The position numbers and the translations under genes were made by a program. From the IMG/VR virus record IMGVR_UViG_3300005914_000030, positions 1 to 36,694 of that record: a stretch of 36,694 nucleotides of DNA. The stretch is one strand, 5' to 3'. This document shows positions 18,420 through 34,699 of the stretch, in pieces; position 1 is the first letter of the stretch, and every line of letters begins with the position of its first letter. This DNA is from a virus. The notes beneath the pieces were generated by a model. That model did not search any database. It had not been told where the DNA came from and saw nothing but the letters and a program-made list of their open reading frames with translations.

Positions 18420-18863
18420 TTATAGGGGTACGCCCACGGCAATGATATCAACCTTAGCTGCGATTGTACCACCAGTGTTGAAGGTAACGCTACCGTCCAC
18501 TCTTGAAGTTGTAATACTAGTTATGATAACAGACATGTCTTGACCAGCCGATGTGCCCTCGATCAGAACAGGCGTAGCTGTTACGATTGGAGGATACTTA
18601 TACTCGCCCTTGAATGAATAAGAAAACGCTTTGGAAGTCTTTGCTGTGATAGACGTCAAGGTTGGATATACCGCAATCTCACCTGCGGTAAGACGGGTTT
18701 CCGTCATAAGGATGTTCTGGGCTCCAGAGGTAGTATCTATGGAGGCATACTTATAAGTTGATGAAGACGCCAGGTTAGCAAGTTCGTTGATTGCTTCAAC
18801 GATCTGATAGATGTACGATACGTCGAGAGGTTGTCCTCTTGTGGGTGTTGGTATTCTAGCCAT
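18420..18863 (-). CDS. Tail fibre/tail tip-associated protein
   Basis: 147-aa protein at the end of the tail module. The N-terminal 30 residues (RIPTPTRGQPLDVSYIYQ, then IVEAINELANL) form a possible trimer-forming helix. The remainder is a Thr/Ser-rich beta region with YKYPPIVTATPVLIEG, as in small carbohydrate-binding or fibre-tip domains. No enzymatic residues stand out. It would be one of the last tail proteins made and could be a receptor-binding or decoration protein. A TATAAT box ends 8 nt before the ATG without a ribosome site. Confidence in the gene is good; the precise role is inferred from position. Confidence 0.65.
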   Translation of the reverse strand: MARIPTPTRGQPLDVSYIYQIVEAINELANLASSSTYKYASIDTTSGAQNILMTETRLTAGEIAVYPTLTSITAKTSKAFSYSFKGEYKYPPIVTATPVLIEGTSAGQDMSVIITSITTSRVDGSVTFNTGGTIAAKVDIIAVGVPL

Positions 18864-18871
18864 AGTAGTTA

Positions 18872-18877
18872 ATTATA
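18872..18877 (-). promoter_or_regulatory. -10 box TATAAT 8 nt before the 147-aa tail protein gene
   Basis: TATAAT in the 28-nt gap between tail genes, ending 8 nt before the ATG at 18863. Only a weak -35-like hexamer (ACGACA, 19-nt spacing) precedes it, and there is no ribosome site. The transcript would be leaderless or nearly so. Confidence 0.45.
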
Positions 18878-18891
18878 GCACAAGGCGATGG

Positions 18892-32838: not shown

Positions 32839-33153
32839 TTATGTTGCAAGAACATTGGCATCATCTAGGACTATGCCTGATGCTGCTTCTACCACCTTGT
32901 AAACAGTTGGAAGATCTAGGTTCTCTTCAAGAGCCTTTAGATCATCCGCTATTTCTGGCTTGTACTGACGCATTGCAATCTGCACACACTCCATAAGAAT
33001 GTCCATTGACTTGTCATTGTCTGTAGCAACCTCAGAAATTTCTCCAAACTTCTTCAAAAATGAGCGTAGCAGTGAAACCTTTAGGGGACGAACAGTTAGC
33101 TTAGTTCCATCCATTAGTTCGATCTCGGTTTGCCCGATAGTTGTTGTAGCCAT
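32839..33153 (-). CDS. Tail-assembly chaperone, short paralogue
   Basis: 104-aa protein just before the tape measure. It is clearly paralogous to the gene upstream: DG near 15-16, V-x-PLK (21-25), LR near 29-30, F36, and the signature EC-x2-I-x-MRQY-x-P (55-66) align with at most one gap. It ends after the shared domain, as the short G-type product of other phages does. Tail-assembly chaperones coat the tape measure before tube polymerisation. An AGAGG ribosome site and a separate TATAAT box at 33193-33198 precede it. No slippery heptamer joining it to another frame was found. Confidence 0.8.
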   Translation of the reverse strand: MATTTIGQTEIELMDGTKLTVRPLKVSLLRSFLKKFGEISEVATDNDKSMDILMECVQIAMRQYKPEIADDLKALEENLDLPTVYKVVEAASGIVLDDANVLAT

Positions 33154-33192
33154 TTGTGTTTACCTCTCCATAGACCTTTATTGGTCTACACA

Positions 33193-33198
33193 ATTATA
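33193..33198 (-). promoter_or_regulatory. -10 box TATAAT before the short chaperone gene, with hairpin leader
   Basis: TATAAT (33198-33193) would start a transcript near 33186 with a leader of about 33 nt. A 6-bp inverted repeat TAGACC/GGTCTA (33171-33188) lies at its 5' end, and AGAGG follows as the ribosome site. No -35 consensus is seen. The stem may stabilise the mRNA; it has no U-tract, so it is not a terminator. Confidence 0.4.
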
Positions 33199-33216
33199 GC
33201 ATAGTTAGGGGACGGA

Positions 33217-33909
33217 TTATCCGATCTTCTCATACGACAGGCCCATACCTATACCAAAACCAGCCTTTGCAGCGTTGTTTCCCTGTAAGGCTACAATATC
33301 GTCAGGGTCTGAGGTCTTTCCACGTGAGAATACTCTGGCCTTCATCTCTTCCCATGCGTTAGCTTCTTTCTTACCCGTCTGCTCATCCAGGTCAACACCC
33401 TGCATAGCTGCCAAGAACTTCTTCTCTGCGTAGTCAAGCTCTCTCTTCATCTCTATGGTCTTACTTAGTTCTGGCAAGGAGATAGAACTCTCCAACTCCG
33501 CATAGTCTTTCCAAATTCCCAGAAGAAAAGCTTCTGCCTCTAGACTGGCAAGGTCAAAAGTTTCCCAGCTTGCTTCTGACTCTTTAGCCTGATCAGATAT
33601 TGGCTCAGGCTTTTCTGTACTCAGACTGATGTCTGCTGCGTAATTGAGTATTTCGTAAAGAGTTTGAACATCAAAGTTGTCCTCGACTTCTTCGGATGTC
33701 TTTATTGAGGGGTAGTACTGTCTCATAGATATTCTTATGCACTCTATGAGATGCTTAAGAGCTACATCATCGTTAGAACCCTTAGAAGTCCTTACCTCTG
33801 CGAACTCAACCATGAAGTCACGGAGAAACTTTATTTTAAGTGGGGTTACGTAAATCTCTAGCCCGTCTACTGTGTAGACGTATCCTGAATTATATACTCT
33901 AGTTGCCAT
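33217..33909 (-). CDS. Tail-assembly chaperone, long paralogue
   Basis: 230-aa protein upstream of the short chaperone and tape measure. Residues 1-97 are the chaperone domain, paralogous to the 104-aa gene (V-x-PLK, LR, EC-x2-I-x-MRQY-x-P). Residues 110-230 form a C-terminal extension (SWETFDLASLEAEAFLLGIW; ALQGNNAAKAGFGIGMGLSY) typical of the long GT-type chaperone, here encoded in one frame without ribosomal frameshifting. It probably binds the tape measure through the first domain and tail tube subunits through the second. The ATG lies exactly 6 nt after a TATAAT box, with no ribosome site, and a terminator for the major tail gene stands immediately upstream. Confidence 0.8.
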   Translation of the reverse strand: MATRVYNSGYVYTVDGLEIYVTPLKIKFLRDFMVEFAEVRTSKGSNDDVALKHLIECIRISMRQYYPSIKTSEEVEDNFDVQTLYEILNYAADISLSTEKPEPISDQAKESEASWETFDLASLEAEAFLLGIWKDYAELESSISLPELSKTIEMKRELDYAEKKFLAAMQGVDLDEQTGKKEANAWEEMKARVFSRGKTSDPDDIVALQGNNAAKAGFGIGMGLSYEKIG

Positions 33910-33980: not shown

Positions 33981-34628
33981 TTACGCAGGCATTGCTAGTG
34001 TGCGGTCAACGATCTTTCCGTATGATGCAGCGTTGTTTGGTAGCAAGCGGAAGCTTACCTCAAACATTGTTGCTTCGTCACGCTTAGCTGATACTGTAAC
34101 GCTCTCGATTGAGAGTGCACGGTATGCAACATAGACTCGCTCAATTGCTGAACCAGCAGCACAGTCTCCTGTACCTGGACCAACAGCAACCAAACCACGC
34201 TCTACTGGACACTCACCGATGTCACCTGCGGACAGGTTTAGGGTGCTTAGTGTGGAAGATGTTCCACCTGTGCCGACTACGTCGACTAGGTCGTCATCCT
34301 GTCCAGCTACTGCAAACAGTAGGTTCTCTAGTGTTGCCTCTGCAAACGATGTATTCAGGTTAACCTGCATACCCTGCTTGTAAAGTTTTGCAACGTCTAG
34401 TACCTGGTCAACGCTTACTTCTCCGAAGTCTGGCTGGAACTGTAGCTCCAGTCCGTTGCTGGTGTAACCAACATTTCGGAAGTCAGCATCTGCCTCAAGC
34501 GTATCCTTTAGGGATTCGTTATCAACGTAGGCTGGCATGGCTGCGTCATTCAACTCGCCAAGTTCGTATGTAAATAGAGCTGCTGCACCAACAATGATGT
34601 TTGCACTCGTACCACGTGTATATGCCAT
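33981..34628 (-). CDS. Major tail protein (tail tube)
   Basis: 215-aa protein forming the tail tube, judged by position just before the chaperones and tape measure and by composition. It is Ala/Gly/Thr/Val-rich with beta-strand segments (LELQFQPDFGEVSVDQVLD, ALSIESVTVSAKRDEATMFE, VSFRLLPNNA), matching the tube fold. A loop with Gly/Ser/Cys (VGTGGTSSTLSTLNLS and CPVERGLVAVGPGTGDC) may be surface-exposed. A very strong ribosome site, AGAGGTGA 7 nt before the ATG, plus its own -10 box and intrinsic terminator, is what a gene for the most abundant tail protein should have. Sequence-level family identity is not certain. Confidence 0.78.
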   Translation of the reverse strand: MAYTRGTSANIIVGAAALFTYELGELNDAAMPAYVDNESLKDTLEADADFRNVGYTSNGLELQFQPDFGEVSVDQVLDVAKLYKQGMQVNLNTSFAEATLENLLFAVAGQDDDLVDVVGTGGTSSTLSTLNLSAGDIGECPVERGLVAVGPGTGDCAAGSAIERVYVAYRALSIESVTVSAKRDEATMFEVSFRLLPNNAASYGKIVDRTLAMPA

Positions 34629-34685: not shown

Positions 34686-34691
34686 ATTATA
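34686..34691 (-). promoter_or_regulatory. -10 box TATAAT of the major tail protein gene
   Basis: TATAAT lies in the 71-nt gap before the major tail gene, giving a leader of about 50 nt with the AGAGGTGA ribosome site. No convincing -35 is found at 17-18 nt (AGTAGT or GAGTAG). The leader holds nothing else that I recognise. Confidence 0.45.
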
Positions 34692-34699
34692 CCAGAGGT

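Follow-up and report, generated by a model that had tools for sequence, protein, structure and literature searches.

The DNA analyzed here, called the window below, is the whole 36,694-base stretch of IMG/VR record IMGVR_UViG_3300005914_000030 (positions 1 to 36,694). Its minus strand carries, in this order, a likely major tail protein gene, a hairpin, a long and a short putative chaperone gene, and a tape measure gene. In the order of transcription, the features of this region are as follows.

34628 to 33981, minus strand: likely major tail protein gene, 215 aa, the upstream neighbour (phrog_2175, E=2.7e-31, and annotation of homologs)
33955 to 33933, minus strand: terminator-like hairpin, which follows the tail protein gene and immediately precedes the -10 of the long gene
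33924 to 33916, minus strand: extended -10 of the long gene, TGCTATAAT, 6 nt before the ATG, leaderless type, directly after the hairpin
33909 to 33217, minus strand: long gene, putative tail assembly chaperone of 230 aa with G and T fused in frame (ORF, PHROG, BLASTP)
33909 to 33619, minus strand: G domain, residues 1-97 of the long gene product (aligned with the short one by BLASTP; phrog_10504)
33573 to 33220, minus strand: T part, covering roughly aa 113-230 of the long gene (PHROG 10474; SWETFDLASLEAEAFLLG matches the -1 frame of Streptomyces phages)
33201 to 33193, minus strand: extended -10 of the short gene, TGCTATAAT, 39 nt before the ATG
33169 to 33163, minus strand: Shine-Dalgarno-like GGAGAGG of the short gene, 9 nt before the ATG
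33153 to 32839, minus strand: short gene, putative tail assembly chaperone, G domain alone, 104 aa (ORF, PHROG, BLASTP)
32862 to 32854, minus strand: codons GAT GCC AAT in the short gene (D98-A99-N100), where frameshift relatives have GAC CCA AAY; the heptamer is gone
32815 to 25958, minus strand: tape measure protein gene, 2285 aa, the downstream neighbour (PhageMin_Tail, E=1.5e-26; phrog_10030, E=1.2e-96)

Paralogy and predicted folds of the two proteins

The preliminary description of this locus had proposed that two separate paralogous genes, one encoding a domain with an extension and one the domain alone, stand in place of a frameshifted chaperone pair, and the lengths, coordinates and order it gave were all correct. 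BLASTP aligned the two proteins with 33 of 97 residues identical (34%, 66.6 bits, E=2e-19) and 64 different, which bears out the proposed paralogy over about 97 residues; the alignment also contains the motifs named at the time, V-x-PLK, LR and EC-x2-I-x-MRQY-x-P. Both proteins matched PHROG 10504, and the C-terminal part of the long one matched PHROG 10474, while Pfam gave weak matches below the cut-offs for both and nothing stronger. By tblastn, 127 phage records match the long protein and 124 the short one, all of them Streptomyces phages; among the 40 matches listed for each (of 127 and 124), many are annotated as tail assembly chaperones and the others as hypothetical. A pattern-based scan of genome contigs from 84,980 species, one genome per species, confirmed no close relative of the long protein. 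Both genes lie between the major tail protein and tape measure genes, the position taken as a mark of chaperone genes. The best PHROG for the 215-aa gene (33981-34628) is a 'protein with Ig domain' (phrog_2175), and the homolog at the same place is annotated as the major tail protein in several Streptomyces phage records; on the other side, the ATG of the tape measure gene lies 23 bases past the stop of the short gene.

The predicted structures were compared with each other and with known folds. The model of the long protein reached a pLDDT of 80.4, with block means of 92-95 over residues 11-40 and 51-90, and that of the short protein 69.8. Over residues 9-92 the order of strands and helices is identical in both models, save a four-residue helix (66-69) of the short one, so the possibility raised earlier, that the two domains are structurally unrelated, found no support in these predictions. 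The HK97 chaperone 2ob9 was the top match of the long model (Z 4.6, rmsd 5.1 over 87 aligned residues) and, for the short model, came third (Z 4.0, rmsd 5.6, again 87 aligned), behind 5ir0 (Z 4.5) and 9lns (Z 4.2), a weak likeness in both cases, with low Z scores tied with those of unrelated chains. Foldseek gave no match of the long model to the PDB at E<=0.001, and the best hit of a PDB sequence search with the short profile (E=0.2) was taken as chance. In BFVD, the best match of the short model (E=3.7e-7) was an uncultured phage protein named tail assembly chaperone, followed by further tail assembly chaperones with weak scores. We consider it very probable that the long and short genes encode two tail assembly chaperones of a long-tailed phage, produced from two genes.

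Frameshift-type relatives and the slip site

Frameshifting from G to GT is widely conserved among long-tailed phages, and relatives of both arrangements were collected. Scans of a viral contig collection returned 267 relatives of the short protein and at least 595 of the long one, the best 80 being taken from each, and three frameshift-type G queries returned 34, 104 and 166 relatives, from which all 34, the best 80 of 104 and the best 80 of 166 were taken, with overlaps. The resulting 347 loci, which include the window and 10 Streptomyces phages, are a query-driven sample in which some loci share one contig and counts are not frequencies; in it, 193 loci have a G-T fusion followed by a separate G, 144 have G followed by T at -1, and the other 10 are incomplete loci, all of them cut by a contig end. 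Among the 347, we found no intermediate, that is, no locus with a frameshift T and a second G and no lone fusion away from a contig end. The 13 locus records examined each hold exactly two places matching the long protein; in 11 of them these are two paralogs, and in the frameshift-type L189 and L308 they are the G frame and the T frame of a single gene. Going by these sequences, the two-gene arrangement is common to many uncultured related phages. The record of one locus (L106) gives a 3741-aa open frame for the short match; in the locus, the short gene stops at its own stop.

In all 10 Streptomyces phage records opened, there is a single G gene with T in the -1 frame overlapping its end. The T frame of Muntaha reads SWEELDLAKLEAEAFLLG where the long gene of the window reads SWETFDLASLEAEAFLLG, in frame with its G domain. 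A search of related phages for an ancestral slippery site, suggested in the preliminary description, was successful. Of the 98 distinct G genes of the frameshift type, 85 carry C.CCA.AAY (60 as C.CCA.AAC, 25 as C.CCA.AAT), lying at a DPN motif 5-21 codons upstream of the stop of G. The remaining 13 gene ends were classified by eye; seven of them (L222, L223, L236, L237, L242, L255 and L259) have GGGAAAC at a like place, as G.GGA.AAC, which brings the slip heptamer to 92 of 98 and indicates that the slip site itself has turned over. The codons at this site are strongly fixed, the D codon being GAC in 85/85 genes versus 189/667 of the other D codons of the same genes, and the P codon CCA in 85/85 versus 203/271, counts that come from related sequences and hence are not independent. 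Six Boydwoodruffvirinae Streptomyces phages (L001, L343, L344, L345, L346 and L348) have CCCGGAA instead of CCCAAAY with T still at -1, and their slip mechanism may be different.

The two-gene loci lack CCCAAAY at the corresponding place. It is absent in every frame of 138 distinct short genes, and in 146 distinct long genes, read over codons 1-130, it occurs twice, neither time in the slip register; in the window, GAT GCC AAT of the short gene was placed against the site by eye through a shared GxxLxD motif. Neither gene of the window is organized as a frameshift-type G/GT gene, the long one being one open frame and the short one having neither a T frame nor CCCAAAY, and no T-like extension was found in any frame after the short gene in the window. 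Across 140 distinct two-gene stretches, 69 other-frame open stretches of at least 20 codons cross the short stop, running less than 90 nt beyond it except for one of 180-209 nt. No T-like frame follows the short stop in these stretches, which speaks against a frameshift product linking the short gene to another frame, named earlier as counting against two separate genes.

Recoding might still be used in another form, the long gene making a second, short product in the manner of dnaX, or the short gene slipping. In-frame X XXY YYZ heptamers, of varied make-up and place, occur in 70 of 100 distinct long genes and in 32 of 83 distinct short genes, some of the latter near the stop, in a scan that read up to 140 codons and so ran past the stops of the short genes; an A-run lies near the G-T linker (codons 93-107) in 10 of the 100 long genes. 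On sequence grounds such heptamers would permit slipping somewhere in some genes. However, none is conserved in place, and no T-like frame follows the short gene; in the window, as taken from the near-identical L006, L007 and L008, the long gene has a single heptamer, GGGAAAC, placed at codon 208 close to the C-terminus, and there is none in the short gene. We therefore regard continued recoding as very improbable. A dnaX-like second product of the long gene was considered in its own right and thought unlikely, its heptamers not being conserved in place.

Start signals of the long and short genes

The start signals claimed in the preliminary description, a leaderless-type -10 for the long gene and a ribosome site with its own -10 for the short one, are present at the locus as candidate elements. 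The extended -10 was recognized by conservation: a generic sigma-70 scan that also required a -35 called neither chaperone -10, and generic counts of -35/-10 promoters and terminators in the region were no higher than in shuffles. The 36.7-kb window contains four copies of the motif TGNTATAAT, each on the coding strand. Beside those of the two chaperone genes, TGGTATAAT stands at 34686-34694 (minus strand), 57 nt before the likely major tail protein gene, so that the tail protein, long and short genes each seemingly have their own promoter. The fourth TGNTATAAT, at 18872-18880 (minus strand), ends 8 nt before a 147-aa gene (18420-18863), a nearly leaderless position.

Conservation of these signals was examined in the 65 bases upstream of each start, every distinct sequence being counted once and starts within 70 bases of a locus end excluded, with an extended -10 allowed at most one mismatch to TATAAT and a Shine-Dalgarno site defined as a match of 4 or more. 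In 105 of 110 long genes, an extended -10 ends 5-9 nt upstream of the start codon, with a -10 at exactly 6 nt in 82, and a Shine-Dalgarno match occurs in none of the 110. Short genes have the -10 at 20-50 nt in 125/125 and a Shine-Dalgarno match in 125/125, and frameshift-type genes have it at 17-35 nt in 81/84 and the match in 84/84. Base-shuffled upstream DNA produced the pattern of the long genes in 0.14% of cases and a Shine-Dalgarno match of 4 in 17-22%. The share with a perfect TATAAT is 39/110 among long genes, 117/125 among short genes and 65/84 among frameshift-type genes. From these counts, the short gene appears to have kept the ancestral type of start, and the long gene lacks the leader and Shine-Dalgarno site and often a perfect -10. 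When a -10 hexamer ends 6 nt before the ATG, the transcript is expected to start at the A of that ATG. Leaderless mRNAs can be well translated in actinobacteria, and the leaderless start of the long gene therefore need not mean low output.

Trees, selection and a proposed history

In the G tree (110 rows), the long genes form one clade (100/99) and the short genes another (100/94). The short clade is nearest to the frameshift G of uncultured relatives (92/89), and the long clade lies outside both on a long branch (0.89); a second free G tree again placed it outside short and frameshift G. This placement is what one would expect if the long gene had come from another phage lineage with an already fused chaperone and the short gene were the old G gene minus T. 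The T parts speak against such an origin, those of the two-gene phages and of their near frameshift relatives forming one group against all others (100 SH-aLRT; 90/71 in the other set). In the free T trees, the two-gene T's alone are scattered around the frameshift ones and do not form one clade; constrained together, they give a higher likelihood and are not rejected (p 0.85 and 0.70 in the two sets). Joining long and short G as a single clade was likewise not rejected, the likelihood being 18.8 lower in the 110-row set (AU p 0.27) and 24.4 higher in the second set (AU p 0.81), and the faster evolution of the long G (median dN/dS 0.33 against 0.165 for the short) can pull it outward in a tree. 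We hence judge acquisition of the long gene from elsewhere unlikely.

The tail protein tree groups 23 of the 24 two-gene phages together (95 SH-aLRT), and the frameshift-type L222, L236, L242, L223, L255 and L259 attach to this group at 80. The exception is L239; its tail pick and that of L237 are probably wrong frames and were retained, with end branches of 1.14 (L239) and 10 (L237). Taken with the G and T trees, this is most simply explained if promoter, G and T were duplicated once, in tandem, in an ancestor that used frameshifting. The earlier proposal of duplication followed by loss of frameshifting gains support from the slip site in relatives, from the single clade formed by each gene, and from a single duplication not being rejected.

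Random pairs from 187 two-gene loci gave median dN/dS values of 0.33 for the G of the long gene (454 pairs), 0.165 for the short gene (255) and 0.18 for T (224), and in 87% of 4000 non-independent pairs the G of the long gene was the less conserved of the two G domains. By these rates, selection maintains both genes, and the G domain of the long gene is the looser one. Their unequal rates, together with G domains that differ at 64 of 97 aligned places, could also mean a division of labour, the long protein being the working chaperone and the short one having another task, with no fixed G:GT ratio. A similar hint comes from L037 (4225-5000), where a gene with an ELGCGSGYD motif, which we take to be methyltransferase-like, lies between the long and short chaperone genes, making strict coupling seem unnecessary; the short gene there keeps its own -10, leader and Shine-Dalgarno site. 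Such a division appears to us quite unlikely, since both proteins keep the same strand and helix order and their position before the tape measure gene, and the opposite start signals hold in 105/110 long and 125/125 short genes, the short gene retaining the leader of a frameshift-type G.

At the level of sequence, then, the two genes are paralogs, the long one is a fusion, both lack the slip site of their relatives, their starts are asymmetric, and each forms one clade. We consider it highly likely that programmed frameshifting was replaced through a duplication, probably in tandem, with one copy fused and the other truncated. The ancestor would have had one promoter, leader and G gene, with T reached from it by programmed frameshifting into the -1 frame, and this unit would have been duplicated. 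The upstream copy would then have joined G and T in frame and lost the slip site and the Shine-Dalgarno leader, leaving the present leaderless-type start, and the downstream copy would have lost T and the slip site and retained promoter, leader and Shine-Dalgarno site. Both proteins would be made; by analogy with lambda, the short G would coat the tape measure protein and the fused GT would also recruit the tail protein, and the asymmetric starts may make G exceed GT. More tentatively, and with limited confidence, we suggest that in this one clade a ratio set by recoding may have been replaced, once, by the asymmetry of the starts, with GT, the scarce form, read from a leaderless start behind a worn -10, and G, the abundant form, from an extended -10 that is mostly perfect together with a Shine-Dalgarno leader, and that the G domain of GT, relieved of bulk production, may have relaxed into a dedicated partner. 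The value of the system lies in related phages that differ in just the frameshift trait, with an order of events that can be proposed and opposite starts in nearly all sampled two-gene relatives; this contrast makes it testable whether a fixed G/GT ratio is needed or the mere supply of both forms.

The gene order of the window is that of lambda gpG/gpGT and of HK97. In lambda, G binds the tape measure protein and T the tail protein, with a G:GT ratio of about 30:1 obtained by frameshifting, according to the portion of PMC5009743 consulted; lambda uses -1 frameshifting, whereas the window has separate genes. As summarized in PMC10274946, citing Vladimirov et al. 2022, some T4-like phages reportedly have a separate short gene and a fused long gene, an arrangement that the window shares; on that account, a two-gene chaperone would be a kind already known. 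Poly-T frameshift signals in T4-like chaperone genes are mentioned in PMC12846349, also citing Vladimirov et al. 2022, and by that mention the chaperone case may differ among T4-like phages. The window case in Streptomyces phage relatives is probably independent of the T4-like one. Among the matches listed in the open-licence literature, we found no report of a two-gene chaperone in Streptomyces phage relatives; what the analysis adds is this case, its frameshift relatives still holding the slip site, and the asymmetry of the start signals.

The nearest named counterparts are the Stanwilliamsviridae phages Coruscant, Faust, Muntaha, Karp, Yaboi, Bmoc, Jay2Jay, LukeCage, Sham and Braelyn, which have homologous G and T at the same site between the tail protein and tape measure genes and a Shine-Dalgarno leader before G. 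They differ in that a single G gene is followed by T at -1 (10/10 records), in contrast to the fused long and separate short genes of the window. In 8 of the 10 Streptomyces phage records (among L001-L003 and L342-L348), T is annotated as a separate gene with its own start, and a joined G-T product is annotated in the Yaboi and Sham records.
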